This document shows, one piece after another, positions 28,469 to 40,057 of a DNA stretch of 64,000 nt (positions are counted from its first letter, which is position 1; each line of letters opens with the position of its first letter). This stretch comes from Celeribacter naphthalenivorans (lineage in GTDB: Bacteria > Pseudomonadota > Alphaproteobacteria > Rhodobacterales > Rhodobacteraceae). The notes beneath the pieces were generated by a model. That model was not told the origin of the DNA. It made no database searches and was given only the letters and a program-made list of their open reading frames with translations. The stretch covers positions 186,001-250,000 of the forward strand of contig NZ_JAIVLK010000003.1 in the NCBI RefSeq assembly GCF_020524585.1. Reading direction: 5' to 3'. The position numbers and the translations under genes are program-made.

Positions 28469-29530
28469 ATGACCTCACACGACGGCCAAGCGGCCTCCAT
28501 CATATTCGACACGGTCGGAAAATCCTTTGCCAAACCGGGCGGGGGAACCGTTTCCGCGATCAGCGATGTCTCCCTCACCGTCGAGGCCGGGACGATCACC
28601 GGCATCATCGGGCGTTCGGGCGCGGGCAAGTCCACGATGCTGCGCATGGTCAACGGGCTGGAGCGTCCGACCTCGGGCAAGGTGCTGGTCGGCGATCAGG
28701 ACGTGGGCACCGCGCGCGGCGCCAAGCTGCGGGCCATTCGGCGCGACGTCGGGATGATTTTCCAGCATTTCAACCTCTTGTCCTCGCGCACGGTCTCCGA
28801 GAACATCGCTTTGCCGCTGGAAATTGCGGGCATCGGAGGCGCGGAGATCAAGACCCGCGTGGCCGATCTTGTCGACCGTGTCGGGCTGACGGCGCAGGCG
28901 GATCGCTACCCGTCCGAATTGTCCGGCGGCCAGAAACAGCGTGTCGGCATCGCCCGTGCCTTGGCGACCGAGCCGAAAATCCTGCTCTCCGACGAAGCCA
29001 CCTCGGCGCTCGACCCGGAGACCACGCAAACCGTGTTGTCGCTGTTGAAAGACATCAATCGCGATCTCGGGCTGACCATCCTTTTGATCACCCATGAAAT
29101 GGCCGTGGTGCGTGACATCGCCAGCCATGTCGCCGTGATCGAGGGCGGCCAGATCGTCGAGGCCGGAACGACCTATGACGTTTTCACCGCGCCGCAACAT
29201 CCGACCACGCGGTCTTTCCTGTCCGGTGTGACGGGGGTCACTTTGCCCGCCTTTATCAAAGATAAAATCATCGCGGAACGTCCGACGTCGGGCGGCGAGG
29301 AAGTGGTGCGCGTGACCTTCTCCGGCAAACATGCGACCGATCCGATGTTGGCGCTTTTGACCCGCGATCTGGGGATCGAGGTCAATATTCTCGCCGGTGC
29401 GGTCGAAGAGATCGGCACGCAGCCCTTCGGCAACCTTCTGGTCTCGCTCGACGCCACCAAAGGCGATGAGGCGCGGGCCTATCTGGAACGTCACGGGCTT
29501 TTGACGGAGGTGCTTGGCTATGTCGGCTAA
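28469..29530 (+). CDS. metN: Methionine ABC transporter ATP-binding protein
   Basis: A 353-residue ATPase of the D-methionine/methionine importer. Walker [11 protein letters not shown]-loop [11 protein letters not shown], signature [15 protein letters not shown], Walker [13 protein letters not shown] and the H-loop ITHEM are all intact. The C-terminal 100 residues form the methionine-sensing NIL (ACT-like) domain typical of MetN. The stop overlaps the metI start by 11 bases. With MetI and MetQ downstream this is a complete importer operon. Confidence 0.95.
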
Positions 29531-30194
29531 TCTCATCAACCTTTTGATCGAAGCGACCGGTCAGACGCTTTACATGGTGGCGATCTCGACCCTTCTGGGG
29601 ACCCTGTTCGGCCTGCCTCTGGGCGTGTTTCTGGCGATCTCTCAACGCGGGGAGCTTTTGTCCTCGCCTTGGGTGAACAAGGTTCTGGGCCTCGTGGTCA
29701 ACGCCACGCGGTCCGTGCCGTTCATCATTCTCGTTGTGGCGATCATCCCCTTCACCCGCGCCATTGCGGGCACCTCGATCGGCACCACCGCCGCGATCGT
29801 GCCGCTGACCATTGCCGCTGTGCCCTTCATCGCGCGGCTGGTGGAAAATGCCATCCGCGAGGTCGATGGCGGGCTCATCGAGGCGGCGCGCGCCATGGGG
29901 GCGACCCCGTTCCAGATCATCCGCAAGGTGCTGATCCCCGAAGCCTTGCCCGCGATCACGCTCGGCCTCACGCTCGCCGTGGTGAGCCTCATCGGCTATT
30001 CCGCCATGGTCGGCGCCGTGGGCGGTGAAGGACTTGGCGATCTCGGTATTCGTTACGGTTATCAGCGCTTCATGCCCGATGTCATGGCCGTGGTGGTCGT
30101 CATTCTCATTGTTCTCGTCCAGCTTGTGCAGTCCATCGGTGAATGGATTGCCGCCCGCGTGGACAAACGTGCCCCCAAGGGGCGCGGTCAATAA
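29520..30194 (+). CDS. metI: Methionine ABC transporter permease
   Basis: A 224-residue permease with five or six membrane helices. The cytosolic coupling motif [24 protein letters not shown] is the conserved EAA loop that contacts MetN. The ATG at 29520 overlaps the end of metN; a TTG two codons earlier is less likely. Length and helix layout match MetI. Confidence 0.95.
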
Positions 30195-30227
30195 CCCTAT
30201 CTGAACCGCATCATAAGGAGTTTACAC

Positions 30228-31004
30228 ATGCTGCGCGTTGCAACACTTTCCTCCGTTCTCGCCCTCATGGCCTCTGTCGCTATGGCCGAAGAGATCAAAG
30301 TCGGCGTGTCCCCCGGCGAACATGCTGAAATCATGGAAGAAGTCGCCAAAGTCGCCGCCCCGATGGGCCTCGACATCGACGTGGTGGAATTCTCCGACTA
30401 CGTGATCCCGAACACCGCGCTGGCCGATGGCGACATCGAAGCCAACTCCTTCCAGCACGTGCCCTATCTGGACAACCAGATGAAGGACCGCGGCTTTGAA
30501 CTGGTCGTCGTGGGCAACACAATCACCACGCCGATGGGCATCTATTCCGACAAGATCGAAGATCTCGCCACCCTCGAAGACGGTGCGAAAGTTGCGATCC
30601 CGAACGACCCGACCAATGGCGGCCGTGCTTTGTTGCTGTTGCAAGACCTCGGTCTGGTGACGCTCGCCGAAGGCACCGGTCTCGTGCCGAGCCCGCTCGA
30701 CGTGCAGGACAACCCCAAGGGCCTCAAGTTCCTCGAACTGGACGCCGCCCAACTGCCGCGCACCCTGTCGGATGCCGACATCGCGATCATCAACACCAAT
30801 TACGCCATCGCCTCGGGTCTGAGCCCGAAAGACGATGCCATCGCGATGGAAAAGGCCGAAAGCCCCTATGTGAACGTGATCGTTGTGCGCAAGGGTGACG
30901 AGGACCTGCCTTGGGTGAAAACCCTTGTGGACGCCTATCACACTGATGAGGTCAAAGCCTTTATCGAAGACAGCTATGATGGCGCGGTGATCACCTCTTG
31001 GTAA
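30228..31004 (+). CDS. metQ: Methionine-binding periplasmic protein
   Basis: A 258-residue NlpA-family binding protein for methionine or related compounds. KVGVSPGEHAEIMEEV at the mature N-terminus and ANSFQHVPYLDNQ, IPNDPTNGGRALLLLQ are family blocks. The signal peptide ends in ASVAMA|EE with no lipobox cysteine, so it appears to be a soluble periplasmic protein, unlike the lipoprotein MetQ of E. coli. The gene has AAGGAG 7 bases before ATG and ends the metNIQ operon. Confidence 0.93.
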   Translation: MLRVATLSSVLALMASVAMAEEIKVGVSPGEHAEIMEEVAKVAAPMGLDIDVVEFSDYVIPNTALADGDIEANSFQHVPYLDNQMKDRGFELVVVGNTITTPMGIYSDKIEDLATLEDGAKVAIPNDPTNGGRALLLLQDLGLVTLAEGTGLVPSPLDVQDNPKGLKFLELDAAQLPRTLSDADIAIINTNYAIASGLSPKDDAIAMEKAESPYVNVIVVRKGDEDLPWVKTLVDAYHTDEVKAFIEDSYDGAVITSW

Positions 31005-31192: not shown

Positions 31193-31492
31193 TTATGCGT
31201 CCTGAACTAGCACCGGCGTAAAGTAGGTCTTGGAACGACCGCCCAGCGTGATCGGATCGATCATCTTCACGCAGGTCTGATAATGCTCCGTCTTGCGATG
31301 CTCATCGAGCGCCGCTTCGCTTTCAAAGATTTCGTAGACAAAGAAATTATTCTCGTCTTCGGGGTCATGCAAAAGATCGAAACGAATGTTCCCGGCCTCT
31401 TTGCGGGTGCCTTCGCAATTGATGGTGAAGGCTTCGAGAAACGTGTCCCGCGTGCCTTCTTGCACTTTAATATTCACGAGTTGAATCAGCAT
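31193..31492 (-). CDS. lsrG: Phospho-AI-2 isomerase-like LsrG
   Basis: A 99-residue antibiotic-biosynthesis-monooxygenase (ABM) fold protein. The pattern MLIQLVNIKVQEGTRDTFLEAF...EAGNIRFDLLHDPEDENNFFVYEIFES...HRKTEHYQTC is that of LsrG, which isomerises phospho-AI-2 to the 3-hydroxy-pentanedione phosphate in enterobacteria. The gene follows the LsrK gene on the same strand in the AI-2 cluster, which supports this over a generic quinol monooxygenase. Confidence 0.88.
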   Translation of the reverse strand: MLIQLVNIKVQEGTRDTFLEAFTINCEGTRKEAGNIRFDLLHDPEDENNFFVYEIFESEAALDEHRKTEHYQTCVKMIDPITLGGRSKTYFTPVLVQDA

Positions 31493-31525
31493 GTGTGAGC
31501 CTTTCGAAAGATAATGTTGGGGCGA

Positions 31526-33055
31526 TCAGGTGCCCGGCGCTTGCCACATTGACGTGGTGATCCCCGACGTGACCAAGTCACGCTGCGCGGCGTAGGCCCG
31601 CTCCCAGCGTGAGCCCGCTTCGTCGTAGAGGGGTTTGAGGTCTGCATTGGGGGTGAATTCGGCTTCAAGCGCAGACCAGGCGGCACCACCTTCGGTCAAC
31701 GACGAGAACAGTGACGCCCCTGTCGCCGCCGCGATGGCACAGCCCTGCGCGGTGGCTTCCTTGACCTTCGGGGTAACGACCGGAAGGCCGGTCACATCCG
31801 CCAGAATTTGCGCCCAATGCGCCGATTTCGACGCGCCCCCGGCAAAGACGATGCGCTCCGGTTGCTTGCCGGACAGCTCGAACACCGCTTTCAGATTGCG
31901 ATGGGCCACGATGGCGGCGTTTTCCTGCAAGGCACGGAAAATGGCGGCGGGGCCGGAGGTCTCGGGATCAATCGAGAGATTGAGCAGAGAGGGCGCCGCG
32001 TGGAACCATTCACCATAGCGCATCACATCCGAAAAGATCGGGATGATCCCATGCGCCCCCGGCGGAACGGATTTCGAGGCGGCCTCCAGCTCCGTATAGC
32101 TTTTGCCTTGCCCGAAAGCATCGCGGAACCAACGCATCACGGCGCCGGTGAAAAAGCTGATCGCTTCGGCTTGATTGAGCCCCGGCACGACATGCGGATT
32201 GATCCGCAAATTCATCGTCGGATCGCGCAGAGACAGCGGTACATTGACGACCTGTTGCCAGAAGGTGCCACCCAGAACCGCGCAATCGCCCTCGTTGACG
32301 ACGCCAAGCCCGAGCGCGCCGGTCTGGCAATCACCGCCGCCTGCAACGACCAAGGTGCCCACAGCAAGGCCGGTCACCTCGGCGGCTTTTGCATGCACTT
32401 GACCGACGACTTCGCCCGTCGAGACAGAGCGCGGCATCAGATCCGGCGACAGCCCCGCAACCTCGAACGCTGCCGCCACGGGGGCGCGATCCGTCAGGCC
32501 GATGAGACCGGTTGTGCCGGCATTCGACGGCTCGGACGACAGCGCGCCGGAGAGCCGATACAGCACCCAATCCGACAGCATCGTGAGCGCACGGGCATTC
32601 TCGAACACCTCGGGCATATGGCTGCGCAACCAGATCAGGCGCGGCAAAGCGCCCAGCGCATAGGTCTGACCCGACAGCGCGTAAATGTCTTCTTCGAGGC
32701 CGGGATGATCCGCCTTGAGGCCGCGCACTTCGGCATCCGCGCGCGCATCCACATTGGCGCAGGCCCAGATCTCGTCGCCCTGCGCATCGTGCAAAACAAA
32801 GGCCTCGCGCATCGCGGTCGCGCTCACCGCCTTAATGTCTTTCGGATCGACGCCGGTTTTGGCGATCAACTCACGACAGCACCGTGCGAGCGTGCTCCAG
32901 TTGCCTTGGGTGTCGAAATCCATCGACCCGGGAAAACGCGGATCGCTTTTGTGCCACCATTCCTGCCCGACGGCGCCGACCTCGGCACCGGTTTGATCGA
33001 ACAAAACGGCGCGACCGGAGCCGGTGCCTGCGTCGAATGCGAGAAAATATTGCAT
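31526..33055 (-). CDS. lsrK: Autoinducer-2 kinase
   Basis: A 509-residue FGGY-family kinase that phosphorylates imported AI-2 (DPD) in the cytoplasm. It matches remembered E. coli LsrK throughout: FDAGTGSGRAVLFD, WACANVDARADAEV, SDWVLYRLSG, PSNAGTTGLIGLT, AVLGGTFWQQVVN, INPHVVPGLNQAEAISFFTG, MRWFRDAF and a C-terminal TSMWQAPG. The nucleotide-binding AGGGDCQTG and FAGGASKS loops are intact. It sits between lsrG and lsrR, two bases after the lsrR stop. Confidence 0.95.
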   Translation of the reverse strand: MQYFLAFDAGTGSGRAVLFDQTGAEVGAVGQEWWHKSDPRFPGSMDFDTQGNWSTLARCCRELIAKTGVDPKDIKAVSATAMREAFVLHDAQGDEIWACANVDARADAEVRGLKADHPGLEEDIYALSGQTYALGALPRLIWLRSHMPEVFENARALTMLSDWVLYRLSGALSSEPSNAGTTGLIGLTDRAPVAAAFEVAGLSPDLMPRSVSTGEVVGQVHAKAAEVTGLAVGTLVVAGGGDCQTGALGLGVVNEGDCAVLGGTFWQQVVNVPLSLRDPTMNLRINPHVVPGLNQAEAISFFTGAVMRWFRDAFGQGKSYTELEAASKSVPPGAHGIIPIFSDVMRYGEWFHAAPSLLNLSIDPETSGPAAIFRALQENAAIVAHRNLKAVFELSGKQPERIVFAGGASKSAHWAQILADVTGLPVVTPKVKEATAQGCAIAAATGASLFSSLTEGGAAWSALEAEFTPNADLKPLYDEAGSRWERAYAAQRDLVTSGITTSMWQAPGT

Positions 33056-33057
33056 GT

Positions 33058-33987
33058 TTACCCTTCCACGGCGTCGAGCAAAGCCAAGGCGGTCGGCTCG
33101 TCGGTCACCAGAATGTCGATGATTTCTCCGCGCAGAGCGGAGAGGATTGGTCCGGTCTTGGTGGGGCCACCCGCGGCGGCAATCACTTTCTCGGAGGTTC
33201 TGAGCTGTTCAAGATCGACGCCAACGACGCAGTCATGCAGCGGCAGGCTGATGTCTTGGCCGGTGCGATCGTAGAAGCGGCACAAAATGTCGCCACGTGC
33301 GCCGAGGCGGCGCAGCGGGTCGATTTCACCGGGCGCGAGATAGCCCTGATTCACAACAGTCGCGGTTTCGCTCAGCCCACCGATGCCCACAAGTTTATAC
33401 TCGGCCTCCAGCGCCTTCGAGATCAGCGAGGACACGGACGGCTCCTGCATCAGCGCCTGCGCCAGTTCGGGGGTCGAAACCACAAGCGGGGCCGGGATGA
33501 TATTGACGTTGCGATGCCAATTGGCCTCACGCATCCCCTCGACATAGGTCTTCACGCCCCCCGTCAGAGAATAGAGACCAACGCCGCGCTCTTGCGCCGT
33601 GTAGCCGAGCATTCGGATCGAATGCGCGACAGTTTCGCCCCAGCCGACCGACAGACTGTCGCCGGGCTGCAGTTTTTGCATCAGATACTGCGCCGCTGCT
33701 TGGCCGACACGCATATTGATGTCTTCCGAAGTGCTTTCGGGAATGACACGGCAATCGCTGAGGCCGAATTGCGCACGCATGCGGGTTTCAAGCTCAAGAC
33801 AGCCCTGTTCCCGCGAATTGATGCTCAACTGAATGAGACCAGAGGTCCGGCCCGCGTCGAGCAGGCGCGAAACCTTGATTCGGGACAGATTGAGAAGCGC
33901 GCCGATCTCACCTTGGGTCAGGCCGTCATTGTAATAGAGCCACGCAACACGCGCGAGTAAAGCCGCGTCCCCGTTGGTCTCGTTCAT
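33058..33987 (-). CDS. lsrR: AI-2 responsive repressor LsrR (SorC family)
   Basis: A 309-residue SorC/DeoR-type regulator with an N-terminal helix-turn-helix (LYYNDGLTQGEIGALLNLSRIKVSRLL) and a sugar-phosphate-binding domain. VARVAWLYYNDGLTQ-like and VNIIPAPLV stretches closely follow E. coli LsrR, which is released from DNA by phospho-AI-2. I chose ATG 33987, which has AGAGG nine bases upstream; the frame also has ATGs at 33996 and 34047, the last without a ribosome site. It faces the lsrACDB operon across 250 bases carrying inverted TGTCAATATG sites. Confidence 0.93.
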   Translation of the reverse strand: MNETNGDAALLARVAWLYYNDGLTQGEIGALLNLSRIKVSRLLDAGRTSGLIQLSINSREQGCLELETRMRAQFGLSDCRVIPESTSEDINMRVGQAAAQYLMQKLQPGDSLSVGWGETVAHSIRMLGYTAQERGVGLYSLTGGVKTYVEGMREANWHRNVNIIPAPLVVSTPELAQALMQEPSVSSLISKALEAEYKLVGIGGLSETATVVNQGYLAPGEIDPLRRLGARGDILCRFYDRTGQDISLPLHDCVVGVDLEQLRTSEKVIAAAGGPTKTGPILSALRGEIIDILVTDEPTALALLDAVEG

Positions 33988-34054
33988 GTCCGCCATCCTC
34001 TGCGCCCTTTCGGCTTCGGTAAGTTTTTTTATTTTTTGCAAATACATTTGATCA

Positions 34055-34125
34055 TGTCAATATGCCTATTTTTACACCAAAATTGCCGCGTTGCGGCGAG
34101 TTTATGGGCAATTTACATATTGACA
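34055..34125. promoter_or_regulatory. Divergent lsr promoters with paired inverted sites
   Basis: TGTCAATATG (34055-34064) and its exact reverse complement CATATTGACA (34116-34125) are spaced 51 bases apart. Each contains a TTGACA -35 hexamer pointing outward, one toward lsrR and one toward lsrA. The symmetrical placement suggests LsrR operators overlapping both -35 elements; -10 hexamers are less clear. Downstream CAGATG...CATCTG (34144-34167 area) is a further weak inverted repeat. Confidence 0.6.
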
Positions 34126-34240
34126 GACAGGTCTCGGACTGAGCAGATGATATTAACTGAAACATCTGATCAGTGACTCGTGCCGCCAAACCTGCGGCTT
34201 CACCCTCAGATGCAGGTCTCGATGGCGTTGAGGAGGCGAC

Positions 34241-35716
34241 ATGAAACCGACCCTTGCGGAGCTTGTCTCCGTCTCGAAAAACTATGGTCCGGTGGCCGTC
34301 CTGAAGGGCGTGGATTTTTCCGTGCGCAAAGGAGAGGTCCATGCGCTTTTGGGTGGAAACGGCGCAGGCAAATCCACGTTGATGAAGATTCTGGCCGGGC
34401 TGGTGCCGGCCACCGGCGGCCAAGTGCAGATCGGCGGCGCAGCCTTGTCACCCGCCACCCCGGCGCAGGCGCAGGCCATGGGGCTCTACCTTGTGCCGCA
34501 AGAGGCGCATATTTTTCCGAACCAATCCGTGCTCGAAAATGTCTGCATCGGCCTGCCGCAGGCCGCCAGCGCCTATCGCAGCCGCGTGAAAGATCTGATT
34601 GCCCGCATGGGCGTGACGCTCCGGCTTGAGACCAAAGCCGCGACGCTTGAGATCGCGGATCGGCAAATCGTCGAGATTCTGCGCGGGCTCATTCGCGATG
34701 CGAAAGTCCTGATCCTCGACGAACCGACCTCCGCGCTCACGCCGCATGAGGTGGACACCCTGTTCACCCGCATGAAAAGCCTGCGCGAGTCCGGTCATGG
34801 CCTCGTGTTCATCTCGCACAAGCTGCACGAATTGCGCGCCGTTTCCGACCGGATCACCGTTTTGCGGGACGGCTTTGTCGTGCATAGCGCCGAGATGGCG
34901 CAGAGCACAGATGCGGAGATTCTGGCCGCCATGAGCCCCGGCGTGACCGCGCTCAATGACCGTGTCGAAGGCAAGATTGTGTCAGAAGAGAAGGTCCTGC
35001 AGCTGTCGCACTTGAGCGGCGAAGGCTTTGTCGACATTTCTCTTGAGGTGCATCGCGGTGAAGTTCTGGGTCTGACGGGCGTTGTCGGCGCGGGCCGGAC
35101 CGAACTGGCCGAGACTCTCGTCGGTCTCAGACCGCGTTCTGGCGGAGAGGTTCTTCTCGAAGGCCGTCCGTTCCACGCGACCAAACCGAGCGACGCCGTC
35201 AAGCAAGGCATCGTGCATCTGTCCGAAGACCGCCAGCAATACGGCCTCTTCCTCGAAGCGCCGCTCTATTGGAACACCTCGTCTTTCGTCTATCACCGCC
35301 TGCCCTTCTTTTTGCGGCCGGGGCGCGAACAGACCCGTTTCGAGACCTATCGCAAAAGTCTCGGCATCAAATGCGCCAGCGCCGATCAACCCGTGAACAG
35401 CCTGTCGGGCGGCAATCAGCAAAAAGTGCTTTTGTCGAAATGTCTCGCCGCTGAGCCAAAGCTGTTGATCCTCGACGAGCCGACCCGCGGCGTCGATGTC
35501 GGCGCGCGCAACGACATTTATCGCATCATCGAAGACCTCGCCGCCGCAGGCACCTCCGTCATTGTGATTTCATCCGATTTCGACGAGGTGGTGCGCCTGT
35601 CCGACAGGATTGCGGTGATGGCGGGCGGGCATCTGGCCGGTGAATTGCCCGCAGGGGCCTCGACCGACGCCATCGGGCAACTGGCCTTCGAGTCCAAGGA
35701 GACCACCCATGCTTAA
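34241..35716 (+). CDS. lsrA: AI-2 ABC transporter ATP-binding protein
   Basis: A 491-residue double-ATPase of the CUT2 sugar importer type. The first domain has Walker A GGNGAGKST and the LEIADRQIVEI signature region; the second has the degenerate GVVGAGRTE loop usual for this family, NSLSGGNQQKV and LLILDEPTRGVDVG. ATG 34241 follows GAGGAGG. It leads the operon lsrACDB plus aldolase; it overlaps lsrC by 8 bases. Confidence 0.94.
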   Translation: MKPTLAELVSVSKNYGPVAVLKGVDFSVRKGEVHALLGGNGAGKSTLMKILAGLVPATGGQVQIGGAALSPATPAQAQAMGLYLVPQEAHIFPNQSVLENVCIGLPQAASAYRSRVKDLIARMGVTLRLETKAATLEIADRQIVEILRGLIRDAKVLILDEPTSALTPHEVDTLFTRMKSLRESGHGLVFISHKLHELRAVSDRITVLRDGFVVHSAEMAQSTDAEILAAMSPGVTALNDRVEGKIVSEEKVLQLSHLSGEGFVDISLEVHRGEVLGLTGVVGAGRTELAETLVGLRPRSGGEVLLEGRPFHATKPSDAVKQGIVHLSEDRQQYGLFLEAPLYWNTSSFVYHRLPFFLRPGREQTRFETYRKSLGIKCASADQPVNSLSGGNQQKVLLSKCLAAEPKLLILDEPTRGVDVGARNDIYRIIEDLAAAGTSVIVISSDFDEVVRLSDRIAVMAGGHLAGELPAGASTDAIGQLAFESKETTHA

Positions 35717-36719
35717 CTGGATCGCCCGCGACCGCGTCGCGACACTTTTGCTCGTCACCATCGCCGTGCTTTTGGCCGTTGGCGCGGCGGCACCCGGATT
35801 TTTGGCGCCGAGCACGGCAACGATGATCTGGTCGAACGGGCTGGTGCTCATGCTGATCGCATTGGGCGTCTTTCCGGTCATTCTAACTCGCAATATCGAC
35901 GTCTCCGGCGGCTCGGTTCTGGGGCTTTCGGCGGTCACGCTTGGCCTGTCCCTCAATGCCGGGTTCGCCATGCCGGTGGCCATTGCCCTGACCCTTGGCG
36001 CGGGCCTTGCCGCTGGGGCGGTCAACGGGGTTTTGGTCGCCGTGCTTGGCGTGCCCTCGATTGTGGCAACGCTTGGCACACTGGGCCTGTTCCGTGGCGT
36101 GATGCTCATCGCGACGGGCGGGGAGTGGATCGAAGAACTGCCGGAAACGCTCAAGGCGCTTGGCGCGAAATCCATCGGCGGGCTGTCCGTAATGGGCCTG
36201 TGCACCATGGTTGTGATCGTTGCTGTCTGGGCCTTTTTGCGGGCACGACGCGGGCGCTGGGTCATGGTGGTCGGCGACAACCGCGCGGCGGCACGCCACT
36301 TGGGCCTGCCGGTGAAGCGGATCGAATTTCTCGCCTTTGTCTGGGGCGGCGGCATGGCCGCACTTGCCGGCATCACCTTTGCCGCGCAGATCGGATTTGT
36401 GCCGAACCAGGCCGGCACCGGCATCGAGTTGCGTGCGATTGCGGCGCTGGTTTTGGGCGGCATCAGCCTTTTGGGCGGCGTCGGAACGGTCGCAGGCGTG
36501 GTGATCGGCGTGATCTTTTTCACCTCGATCGACACCGCCCTCGTGTTCCTCAAAATCCCGGCCTATTGGAACGATCTGATCGGTGGCGCCATGCTTTTGA
36601 CCGTCTTGCTGATCGATGGCCGGTTGCGCATTGCGCTCGAAGCCCGAGATCGTGCGGCCCGCTATCACCGCGGTGAGGCCCCGACACCCCAATCCAAAAC
36701 GCTGGAGGATGCGGCATGA
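35709..36719 (+). CDS. lsrC: AI-2 ABC transporter permease LsrC
   Basis: A 336-residue BPD_transp_2-type permease with about ten helices. ILTRNIDVSGGSVLGLSAVT is the conserved cytosolic-side motif of ribose/AI-2 permeases, and GDNRAAARHLGLPVKRIEF is the coupling helix toward LsrA. Start ATG 35709 overlaps the lsrA stop; the longer frame is out of family. It overlaps lsrD by ATGA. Confidence 0.93.
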   Translation: MLNWIARDRVATLLLVTIAVLLAVGAAAPGFLAPSTATMIWSNGLVLMLIALGVFPVILTRNIDVSGGSVLGLSAVTLGLSLNAGFAMPVAIALTLGAGLAAGAVNGVLVAVLGVPSIVATLGTLGLFRGVMLIATGGEWIEELPETLKALGAKSIGGLSVMGLCTMVVIVAVWAFLRARRGRWVMVVGDNRAAARHLGLPVKRIEFLAFVWGGGMAALAGITFAAQIGFVPNQAGTGIELRAIAALVLGGISLLGGVGTVAGVVIGVIFFTSIDTALVFLKIPAYWNDLIGGAMLLTVLLIDGRLRIALEARDRAARYHRGEAPTPQSKTLEDAA

Positions 36720-37699
36720 AAAAGCTCATTCTGCGCTGGGAAGTTCTGCTTCTCGCCCTGCTCGCTCTCGAACTCATCATCTTTGGCATGATCAACCCAC
36801 GCTTTTTGCGGCCCAGCTCGCTTTTGTTCGGGACCTCGGATTTCGTGCAAGTCGGGATCGTCGCCGTGCCTTTGACCCTCGTGATCATTGCGGGCGGCAT
36901 TGACGTGAGCTTCGCCTCCACCGTCGGGCTTTGTGCCATCACCTTCGGGATCGCCAATTTCTTTGGCCTGCCTCTGGCGGCCTCTTTGACGGTCGGCTTT
37001 GCCACCGGCGCGTTGGCGGGTCTTTTGAACGCCACGATCATTCGCCTGACGCGGTTGCAACCTTTGGTCGTCACCTTGGGCTCTCTCTATATGTTCTCAG
37101 GGGCCGCGACCGTTTTGTCGGGCGTTGTGGGGGCGAATGGCTATGAGGGGATCGGCGGATTTCCGGCCGCCTTCACCGGGCTTGGCTATGCGCAAATGTT
37201 CGGCCTGCCGATGCCGCTTTTTGTCTTCCTGTGCTTCTCTGCCGTGCTTTTGGTCTTGCTGCACATGACGCGCTTTGGGCGGCTGGTGTTCCAGATCGGC
37301 CAAAACGAAGACGCCGCGCGTCATTCGGGCATGCCCGTGTTCCGCGTCCAGATGTGGACCTATGTGCTCACCGGTCTGGCCGCAGCACTCGCAGGGCTGT
37401 TGCTCTCGGCCTATTTCGGATCGGCGCGCGTCGATCTGGGCGGCGCAACACTGTTGCCAGCCATCACGGCGGCGGTGCTCGGCGGCGCGTCGATCTATGG
37501 TGGCAAAGGCTCAGTTCTGGGCACGATCATCGCCACATTCGTCATCGGCTACCTGCAACAGGGCCTGCAAATGAGCGGCGTCCCCAGTCAGATTTCCAGC
37601 GCGCTGTCCGGGGCGCTTCTGGTGATTGTCGTGGCGTTTCGCCACGGTCTCGCGCTGTTGAGCGCAATTATCCCGGTGCGCCCAGGTCAGACCAACTGA
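36716..37699 (+). CDS. lsrD: AI-2 ABC transporter permease LsrD
   Basis: A 327-residue partner permease. IIAGGIDVSFASTVGLCAIT and GQNEDAARHSGMPVFRVQM are the equivalent membrane and coupling motifs. It presumably forms a heterodimer with LsrC. The ATG overlaps the lsrC stop and lsrB follows after 36 bases with its own strong ribosome site. Confidence 0.93.
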   Translation: MKKLILRWEVLLLALLALELIIFGMINPRFLRPSSLLFGTSDFVQVGIVAVPLTLVIIAGGIDVSFASTVGLCAITFGIANFFGLPLAASLTVGFATGALAGLLNATIIRLTRLQPLVVTLGSLYMFSGAATVLSGVVGANGYEGIGGFPAAFTGLGYAQMFGLPMPLFVFLCFSAVLLVLLHMTRFGRLVFQIGQNEDAARHSGMPVFRVQMWTYVLTGLAAALAGLLLSAYFGSARVDLGGATLLPAITAAVLGGASIYGGKGSVLGTIIATFVIGYLQQGLQMSGVPSQISSALSGALLVIVVAFRHGLALLSAIIPVRPGQTN

Positions 37700-37735
37700 C
37701 CCGTGCAAATAAGTTCAAATGGAGGAGGAAACACC

Positions 37736-38752
37736 ATGCGTAAATCGGTAAAATTTCTTGGCGCGATCGCAGCCGGGGTGATGGCGGTCAACGCCGCCGC
37801 CGCGGAGGACATCGCGTTCATTCCCAAACTGGTCGGGGTCGGCTTTTTCACCTCGGGCGGCAACGGCGCGACGGCGATGGGCGAGGAGCTTGGCGTCAAT
37901 GTCACCTATGACGGCCCGACGGAGCCCAGCGTCTCCGCACAGGTTCAGTTCGTGAACAACTTTGTCAATCAGGGCTACGGCGCCGTGGTGCTGTCTTCTG
38001 TGTCGCCCGACGGTCTTTGCCCGGCGCTGAAACAGGCGATGGCGCGTGATGTTCTTGTGATGACATGGGATTCGGACGTCAGCCCGGAGTGCCGGTCCTA
38101 CTACATCAACCAAGGCACACCTGAGCAGCTGGGTGGTCTCTTGGTCGATATGGCCGAGGACGGTCTTGAGGGCAAAGAGGACGCCAAAGTGGCCTTCTTC
38201 TACTCGTCCCCGACGGTGACCGACCAGAACGCCTGGGCGGAAGCGGCCAAAGCCAAGATCGCCGCCGAGCATCCGGGTTGGGAAGTCGTCACCACGCAAT
38301 ACGGCTACAACGATGCGCAGAAATCCCTGCAAACGGCTGAGAGCATCCTCTCCGCCTACCCGGATCTGGACGCGATCATCGCCCCCGATGCCAACGCGCT
38401 TCCGGCCTCCGCGCAAGCCGCAGAGAACCTTGATCGTGCAGGCGATGTGACCATCGTCGGCTTCTCCACCCCGAACGTCATGCGCCCCTATGTCAAACGC
38501 GGCACCATCGAGCGTTTCGGCCTGTGGGACGTGACGCAACAGGGTGCGATCTCCGTCGCCGTTGCGGCCCATGTGCTTGAGAACGGTCCGCTGAATGTTG
38601 GCGACAAAGTCGAGGTGCCGGGCATCGGCGAGGTCGAAGTGTCGCCCAACGCGGTGCAGGGCTATGACTATGAGGCCGATGGCAATGGCATCATCCTGTT
38701 GCCGGAGCGCACCGTTTTCACCGCCGAAAACATCGACAACTTTGACTTCTAA
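37736..38752 (+). CDS. lsrB: AI-2 binding periplasmic protein LsrB
   Basis: A 338-residue binding protein with signal peptide (ends NAAAA). Long blocks match E. coli/Salmonella LsrB as I remember it: [84 protein letters not shown] and [17 protein letters not shown]. The residues that contact AI-2 (Lys in PKLVG, Asp in TWDSD, Asp-Gln in TDQN, Pro/Ala in NALPASA) are present, so true AI-2 binding is likely rather than ribose. Start ATG 37736 has GGAGGAGG upstream. Confidence 0.96.
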
Positions 38753-38770
38753 ACACTAAAACACAGGTCA

Positions 38771-38794
38771 GGCGGGGGCGTTCGCGCCCTCGCT
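38771..38794 (+). terminator. Intercistronic stem-loop after lsrB
   Basis: GGCGGGGGCG (38771-38780) pairs with CGCCCTCGCT (38785-38794), two G-U pairs, TTCG tetraloop. Such stems behind binding-protein genes usually protect the upstream mRNA and lower expression of the following gene. Only a short CTTT follows, so full termination is doubtful. Confidence 0.55.
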
Positions 38795-38815
38795 CTTTCA
38801 TGGAAGGAACCACCT

Positions 38816-40057
38816 ATGCTGTCCCGCTGGAATGACACCGAAGCGCAGAAATTTATCGAGGCCGCCGAGGCAGAGGGGCAGCCCGCTGCACTTGGCCTGC
38901 GGGTCTACACCTCGCGCCTGATCGGGCAAGACCCCGATCTCGTTTTGCATGGCGGGGGCAACACCTCGGTCAAAGTGAAAGATGCCGAGGGGCAGGATTT
39001 GATCCATGTGAAAGGCTCCGGTTGGGATTTGGGCGACATCGAAGCGCCCGGCCTTCCCGCGATGCATCTTGAGCCGCTTTTGAAAACGCGCGAGATCCCG
39101 CATATGTCGGATGAGGACATGGTGGCGCTGTTGCGGGCCAATCTTTTGGACCCAAGCGCGCCGACGCCGTCGATCGAAGCGCTGCTGCATGCCTATATGC
39201 CCCACGCTTTTGTCGACCACACCCATGCGACGGCCTCTCTCGCGCTCGCCGATCAAAGCGACATGGAGCCGGTGATGCATGAGATTTACGGCGACCGCGT
39301 GGCCTTTGTGCCCTATGTCATGCCGGGCTATAGCCTCAGCCACGCCTGCAATGATGCGCTGAACAAACACCCGAATGTCGAGGGGCTTTGGCTGGCGCAG
39401 CATGGGCTGTTCACCTTCGCGGAGACGGCGCGTGAAAGCTATGAGCTGATGATCGAATTCGTGACGCTGGCCGAGGACTATCTGGCCGCGCGCGGCGCAG
39501 AGGCTCTGCCGCCGCAAGACAATGATCGTGACGCGCCCGATGCCCTGACGCAGGCGTTGCGTGACGCCCTTGCCGCTGACGGCCATCTGGGCGACACCCC
39601 CGCGCTTGATTTCCGCTCCACCCCGTCCATTCGGACCTATCTGGCGCGCGAAAATCTGGTCGAACTGTCGCAACGCGGCACGGCGACACCGGATCACGTC
39701 ATCCGCATCAAGCCTTTCGGCATGATCCTTGACGCCAATGACGGCGCCGAAGAGATCACCCGCGCGCTTGCGGATTACGCGACCCGCTACAAAGCCTATT
39801 TCGACCGCAACGCCCCCAATGCTTCGGAAGAAAAGATCATGCTCGATCCGCTGCCGCGCGCGGTTCTGGTGCCCGGCGTTGGTCTTTACGGTCTGGGCGC
39901 AAATGAGAAAGCCGCGAAGATTGCCGGTGATCTTTTGGAGCAAACCACCCGGATCGTGAACGCAGCCGAGGATTACAACCGCTTCACCCCGATCTCGGAG
40001 GCCGATCTGTTCGATATGGAATATTGGTCCCTGGAGCAGGCAAAACTTCGCAAGTGA
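38816..40057 (+). CDS. Class II aldolase/adducin-family protein
   Basis: A 413-residue protein resembling the aldolase half of the RhaD-type aldolase/dehydrogenase fusions, without the short-chain dehydrogenase half. The HGGGNTSVKV phosphate loop, HTHATASLALAD (two metal His) and LAQHGLFTFAETARESYE (third metal His) are intact. It is the last gene of the lsrACDB operon with a GGAAGGAA site. The position suggests cleavage of a phosphorylated AI-2 product, a step done by the thiolase LsrF in E. coli; no lsrF lies in this window. This role is inference. Confidence 0.82.
   Translation: MLSRWNDTEAQKFIEAAEAEGQPAALGLRVYTSRLIGQDPDLVLHGGGNTSVKVKDAEGQDLIHVKGSGWDLGDIEAPGLPAMHLEPLLKTREIPHMSDEDMVALLRANLLDPSAPTPSIEALLHAYMPHAFVDHTHATASLALADQSDMEPVMHEIYGDRVAFVPYVMPGYSLSHACNDALNKHPNVEGLWLAQHGLFTFAETARESYELMIEFVTLAEDYLAARGAEALPPQDNDRDAPDALTQALRDALAADGHLGDTPALDFRSTPSIRTYLARENLVELSQRGTATPDHVIRIKPFGMILDANDGAEEITRALADYATRYKAYFDRNAPNASEEKIMLDPLPRAVLVPGVGLYGLGANEKAAKIAGDLLEQTTRIVNAAEDYNRFTPISEADLFDMEYWSLEQAKLRK

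Follow-up and report, generated by a model that had tools for sequence, protein, structure and literature searches.

A zinc class II aldolase in the place of LsrF in the lsr cluster of Celeribacter naphthalenivorans and of other Alphaproteobacteria

The lsr genes for import and processing of the signal autoinducer-2 (AI-2) were analyzed in a stretch of 64,000 nucleotides, hereafter the window, corresponding to positions 186001-250000 of contig 3 of the 4.36 Mb genome of Celeribacter naphthalenivorans. At 31193-40057, the minus strand of the window carries lsrG, lsrK and lsrR, and the plus strand lsrA, lsrC, lsrD and lsrB followed by an aldolase gene; lsrG-K-R and lsrACDB are transcribed away from a common promoter region. 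These eight genes lie where an initial annotation, made from the sequence alone, had placed them, and its statement that the cluster lacks LsrF held, the slot being occupied by a class II aldolase. In line with its supposition that such bacteria lack luxS, this gene was not found in the genome of the window, nor in any of the 30 lsr genomes searched, this one among them. We consider it probable, with some reserve, that the aldolase-type lsr cluster is an AI-2 scavenging operon of a luxS-less bacterium, in which a zinc class II aldolase replaces LsrF at the last step.

The exchange of LsrF for the aldolase is conserved and general. In a scan of named LsrB loci (99 relatives of LsrB, of which the best 80 loci were kept), 44 had a full-length aldolase without LsrF, so the conserved aldolase neighbor anticipated by the initial annotation was indeed found, and 21 had LsrF without the aldolase. 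The remainder comprised five loci with both enzymes, all from Actinobacteria, four with a partial aldolase (L050, L083, L091 and L097, the first two ending with the contig) and six with neither (L071, L074, L076, L094, L121 and L128, the last one cut by a contig end). A chance neighborhood of the two genes was ruled out, as the aldolase lay at most 124 bases from lsrB in each of the 44 full-length loci. When the whole order was searched, LsrB scored over its cut-off in 8 of 390 genomes; six of these contained the aldolase in the lsrF slot, one LsrF (G289) and one neither enzyme (G231). Aldolases at least 65% identical to that of the window were present in six of the 390, the same six genomes with an aldolase-type lsr cluster, and the next tier stood at 55% identity and below. 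A draw of 398 genomes from the phylum gave LsrB in 11, nine with LsrF and two with the aldolase (the genome of the window and G1058). Among 385 genomes of the class, only that of the window matched LsrB at E 1e-100, so the lsr genes are rare in the class. Five LsrF-type genomes were checked for a related aldolase: three had none at E 1e-40 and two had only a fused one (50% and 31% identity). Where annotated among the plasmid-collection rows listed, the gene is named class II aldolase or class II aldolase/adducin family protein.

The features of the cluster are given below; cut-offs for NCBIfam are curated bit scores, and the Pfam figures are score versus cut-off.

31193..31492, minus strand: lsrG, phospho-AI-2 isomerase (ABM fold); top match NCBIfam PRK10486 with 98.8 bits, below the cut-off of 135; Pfam ABM 75.3 versus 23.1
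31526..33055, minus strand: lsrK, AI-2 kinase; NCBIfam 774.2 bits versus a cut-off of 528
33058..34047, minus strand: lsrR, SorC-type regulator; NCBIfam top match 277.8 bits, below the cut-off of 486; Pfam Sugar-bind 208 versus 27
34048..34240, no strand: divergent promoter region; perfect inverted repeats 34055-34064 / 34116-34125 and 34080-34087 / 34107-34114
34241..35716, plus strand: lsrA, double ATPase; NCBIfam 678.1 bits versus 586
35709..36719, plus strand: lsrC, permease; NCBIfam top match 358.2 bits, below the cut-off of 388; start from homologues
36716..37699, plus strand: lsrD, permease; NCBIfam top match 379.8 bits, below the cut-off of 500
37736..38752, plus strand: lsrB, AI-2 binding protein; NCBIfam 617.3 bits versus 384, scored on a longer frame; start from homologues
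38772..38793, plus strand: RNA hairpin in the lsrB-aldolase spacer; nine pairs, UUCG loop
38816..40057, plus strand: standalone class II (zinc) aldolase in the lsrF slot; assigned by profile matches, position, tree and active-site residues

LsrK, LsrA and LsrB exceeded their NCBIfam cut-offs, whereas LsrC, LsrD, LsrR and LsrG were best matches yet under theirs. Identities to the proteins of E. coli K-12 were 72% for LsrB, 56% for LsrD, 52% for LsrC and for LsrK, 46% for LsrA, 42% for LsrR and 40% for LsrG, and homologues pointed to better starts for lsrC (35709) and lsrB (37736). An LsrACD importer is thus encoded, with LsrA recognized by its score, LsrC and LsrD by identity, and a gene order as in relatives. 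The closest solved chain to LsrB is SmLsrB of Sinorhizobium meliloti (3ejw, E 4.5e-178), and the predicted pocket motifs with what we take to be the AI-2 contacts are identical to those of E. coli LsrB, in agreement with the near-canonical residues first noted. This receptor bears on another reading, namely that the cluster imports a different sugar-like compound for which the aldolase would be an ordinary sugar-phosphate aldolase. Related standalone aldolases do occur together with FGGY kinases and SorC regulators of other kinds, as on contig C7 of the same genome, but the likeness of LsrB to an AI-2 receptor, together with the LuxP-like protein of the variant clusters described below, makes this reading very improbable.

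The 63-base spacer between lsrB and the aldolase contains the stem-loop that had been noticed at the outset, and folds with -22.7 kcal/mol (z -2.2), an equal stability being reached in 6 of 200 shuffles. The inverted repeats of the lsrR-lsrA region are possible LsrR sites; the exact repeats of the window were not found in the lsrR-lsrA regions of relatives, and we claim no shared operator. Adjoining the lsr cluster, at 28469-31004, a gene for a MetQ-like lipoprotein is preceded by ABC (ATP-binding cassette) ATPase and permease frames, and these genes are probably metNIQ.

The last gene of the operon had been described as an aldolase half of the RhaD-type fusion family, and this description was confirmed: its match to the model of a bifunctional aldolase/short-chain dehydrogenase is confined to the aldolase part (profile positions 1-428 of 685), and the protein ends where the match ends, without the C-terminal dehydrogenase domain. 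It scores 80.7 bits versus 22.2 for Pfam Aldolase_II. It has the class II aldolase fold, the fold comparison hardly bearing on the parts of the structural model beyond residue 228. In a MAFFT alignment, E121, H135, H137 and H196 correspond to what we take to be the catalytic Glu and the three zinc His of FucA, and they are invariant across 32 aligned rows. No alignment of the domains was obtained when the aldolase was compared by hhalign with a single FucA sequence. The aldolase of the window and 43 lsr relatives form one clade (support 100/99), apart from fused and kinase-linked paralogues, and a smaller tree gave the same clade (100/98). On the LsrB tree, with rows lacking a full-length enzyme left out, the terminal enzyme requires two changes between the states aldolase, LsrF and both. 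The lsr aldolases of Actinobacteria branch as a distant lineage (100/98; the program warned of long branches), so an association of this family with AI-2 genes probably arose at least twice.

LsrG is known as an isomerase of phospho-AI-2, and its product, 3-hydroxy-2,4-pentanedione-5-phosphate (P-HPD), resembles a ketose-1-phosphate whose C3-C5 half is a dihydroxyacetone phosphate (DHAP) unit, the part gripped by aldolases of the FucA/RhaD type. For the substrate of the aldolase, the bond broken and the products, we infer the following route. LsrB and LsrACD would import AI-2, as their homology to known proteins suggests; LsrK would phosphorylate it at C5, the phospho-AI-2 releasing LsrR; and LsrG would isomerize phospho-AI-2 to P-HPD, these steps resting on homology and known chemistry. 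A zinc class II aldolase, and not the thiolase LsrF, which depends on coenzyme A (CoA), would carry out the final step, breaking the C2-C3 bond of P-HPD, hydrated at its C2 ketone, in retro-aldol fashion and yielding DHAP and acetate with no CoA. According to PMC7828210, LsrF splits its product into acetyl-CoA and DHAP.

The main rival to this route is a reductive one leading to acetaldehyde, in which a reductase would reduce P-HPD at C2 to a 5-deoxypentulose-1-phosphate that the aldolase would cleave to DHAP and acetaldehyde, a retro-aldol reaction as in the DHAP shunt. At least 8 of the 44 aldolase loci do have a short-chain dehydrogenase or an aldo/keto reductase no more than 3.5 kb away (Pfam scan, BLAST), but no single reductase is common to the genera, the dehydrogenases being about 30% identical, except for near-twins in L062 and L063, and located 19 to 2771 bases off, and no reductase gene stands between the lsr genes of the window. 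We consider the reductive branch rather unlikely.

Several observations weigh against the aldolase as the enzyme that finally cleaves P-HPD. The first one is that the genome of the window itself encodes an LsrF homologue. The initial annotation had proposed a different terminal step provided that no functional lsrF existed elsewhere in the genome, and this proviso formally fails: contig 10 encodes an LsrF-family protein (501.7 bits versus a cut-off of 297) that is 70% identical to E. coli LsrF and, judged by the site list of PMC2728841, retains all eight ligand-site residues compared. A complete absence of LsrF from this genome was therefore ruled out, and the proposal stands in part: the conserved swap, the absence of luxS and the catalytic Glu and zinc His favor it, whereas the LsrF homologue elsewhere in the genome does not. 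Second, each of the five lsr loci from Actinobacteria that are long enough to judge (L122-L126) has LsrF beside a distant aldolase. Third, a non-lsr operon of Shinella zoogloeoides (L227, 8236-10400) has LsrF, 69% identical to that of the window's genome, followed by a 37% identical aldolase, and in Timonella LsrF lies outside lsr with a 29% aldolase match about 1.2 kb away. Where both occur, as in these Actinobacteria, Shinella and Timonella, LsrF and the aldolase seem to have different jobs, and the aldolase may do something that LsrF does not in the clade of the window as well. Fourth, some loci, as in Nitratireductor (L071, L121) and Rubellimicrobium (L094), contain neither enzyme, and therefore the terminal step can be lost or moved. 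Fifth, T43 and S72 of FucA are replaced in the aldolase by Ser and Ile, respectively, and Y113 and F131 are not kept. Finally, P-HPD is a beta-diketone whose cleavage needs water or another nucleophile, a reaction that, to our knowledge, is not known for this aldolase family.

A further possibility is that the aldolase acts as an isomerase, an epimerase or a side-product enzyme and that cleavage takes place elsewhere, in some genomes by LsrF. The two enzymes, however, nearly exclude one another: LsrF was under the cut-off or absent in 39 of the 41 aldolase-type genomes searched, and over it only in the genome of the window and in Shinella zoogloeoides; in the S. meliloti genome searched, too, no LsrF exceeded the cut-off. 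These 41 (24 plus 17, the genome of the window included; in one of the 24 a contig end truncates the aldolase) are a chosen set rather than all aldolase-type genomes, and for the 35 reached via named loci completeness is not stated. A non-cleaving aldolase would therefore require another cleaving enzyme in the 39, and the residues for retro-aldol catalysis are invariant, which leaves this possibility quite unlikely.

Some gene arrangements at these loci are also worth recording. The LsrF operon on contig 10 (L047, 579-8181) comprises an ABC transporter, a SorC regulator, a flavin adenine dinucleotide oxidoreductase and an FGGY kinase. A gene set with some resemblance to it is described for Rhizobiales in PMC3420918. 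In the five Actinobacterial loci a cupin gene (products 60-73% identical to that of L122) sits between lsrK and lsrF, where LsrG would be, and LsrG was not found in these loci even at a relaxed threshold. LsrF-type Alphaproteobacteria (L096, L100, L102-L112, L114 and L115; Pleomorphomonas, Cohaesibacter, Pseudovibrio and kin) have lsrF before lsrA and lsrG after lsrB. By our own reading, frames after lsrB in L076 look like transposases, and in Rubellimicrobium (L094, 10964-14600) frames resembling CRISPR (clustered regularly interspaced short palindromic repeats) arrays follow lsrB in the place of the aldolase, with a Cas1-like frame beyond.

A second type of cluster, apparently also for AI-2 uptake, was found in four Rhodobacterales, namely genomes G244, G046 and G343 and plasmid pRA01 of Roseicitreum antarcticum:

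L207, 8497-16326: variant cluster
L209, 2002-11200: variant cluster
L210, 1391-9536: variant cluster
L217, 2226-12122: variant cluster

Besides LsrK, LsrG and an aldolase, these clusters encode an RbsD/FucU protein, a regulator resembling LsrR and the binding protein, permease and ATPase of an ABC importer. They contain no LsrB or LsrF, and LsrF was over the cut-off nowhere in G244, G046 or G343. Their aldolases are 53-55% (G244, G046, G343) and 51% (Roseicitreum) identical to that of the window. The three LsrKs tested scored 792-806 bits versus 528, while the LsrGs (104-126 bits, cut-off 135) and the G244 regulator (345, cut-off 486) remained under their cut-offs. The binding protein of G244 (L207), the one compared, matched no NCBIfam family at E 1e-10, and its best solved relatives are LuxP of Vibrio (1jx6, 1zhh; E 1e-50). 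Of the eight residues that we take to be the AI-2 contacts of LuxP, seven are kept in all four proteins (S79, W82, N159, R215, T266, W289 and R310), Q77 being Glu. A search with the G244 protein retrieved 4 of 321 genomes: G244, G046 and, at 36-38% identity, G173 and G258. No lsr enzymes were found near the LuxP-like proteins of G173, G258 and a Tateyamaria plasmid (38%), and therefore likeness to LuxP alone does not mark a variant AI-2 system.

The LsrKs of the variant clusters cluster together, and their clade joins G289, which is an LsrF-type genome, rather than aldolase-type lsr. Among the aldolases, that of G343 is grouped with kinase-linked paralogues (99/97), and the other three variant enzymes stand apart (95/93). 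As far as sequence comparison allows, this looks like repeated recruitment of the aldolase, the G343 enzyme appearing as if it had moved in from a kinase-aldolase locus. Upstream of the latter gene (L210, 8037-8280) there is an open frame that resembles, by eye, the tail of an FGGY kinase. We see about even chances that CoA-independent destruction of AI-2 by LsrK, LsrG and a zinc aldolase is usual in such luxS-less Alphaproteobacteria and was assembled more than once, also behind a LuxP-type ABC importer, so that some LuxP-like proteins of Rhodobacterales would feed AI-2, perhaps in its borate form, into catabolism and not to a LuxQ sensor.

Genes for the uptake and processing of AI-2 are present in many bacteria unable to make it, and in a large group of such bacteria a zinc-type aldolase takes the place of LsrF. 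This swap points to an unrecognized way of destroying a common bacterial signal, and AI-2 users without luxS may act as sinks for it. For the Alphaproteobacteria, a single candidate gene emerges from this work, whose position is conserved, whose active site is predicted and for which two product pairs can be tested. The operon type was already known: in the part of PMC2561040 available, lsrBDCARKG is described in Rhodobacter sphaeroides and Sinorhizobium meliloti, with no lsrF named and luxS noted as absent, and the word aldolase does not occur in the main text. AI-2 systems are surveyed in PMC3420918, PMC12268683 and PMC11069264; in the accessible parts, an aldolase is not mentioned in the latter two and appears in the first only for the Rhizobiales gene set, LuxP binding AI-2 for transport is mentioned in PMC12268683, and two LuxP candidates grouping with Alphaproteobacteria are reported in PMC11069264. 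Among the matches listed in the literature searched, from which subscription papers were mostly outside, no link between a class II aldolase and an lsr cluster was found, and no last enzyme is assigned to this operon type; an earlier mention is possible.

In comparison with known systems, the lsr genes of E. coli and Salmonella (lsrACDBFG, lsrRK) share with the window the families of importer, receptor, kinase, regulator and isomerase, the divergent layout and an enzyme gene right after lsrB; the window differs in having a class II aldolase for LsrF, lsrG after lsrK instead of after lsrF, and no luxS. The S. meliloti locus (L082) is of the same type and gene order as the window, with a 60% identical aldolase. 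The bifunctional RhaD type (PRK08324) has the aldolase part in common, and the fused paralogues found in these same genomes share 30-50% identity, whereas the aldolase of the window lacks the dehydrogenase half and the lsr aldolases form their own clade. Finally, the variant-cluster protein keeps seven of the eight AI-2 contacts of Vibrio LuxP but, unlike it, adjoins an ABC permease, an ATPase and Lsr enzymes, an arrangement that belongs to the variant clusters and not to the window.

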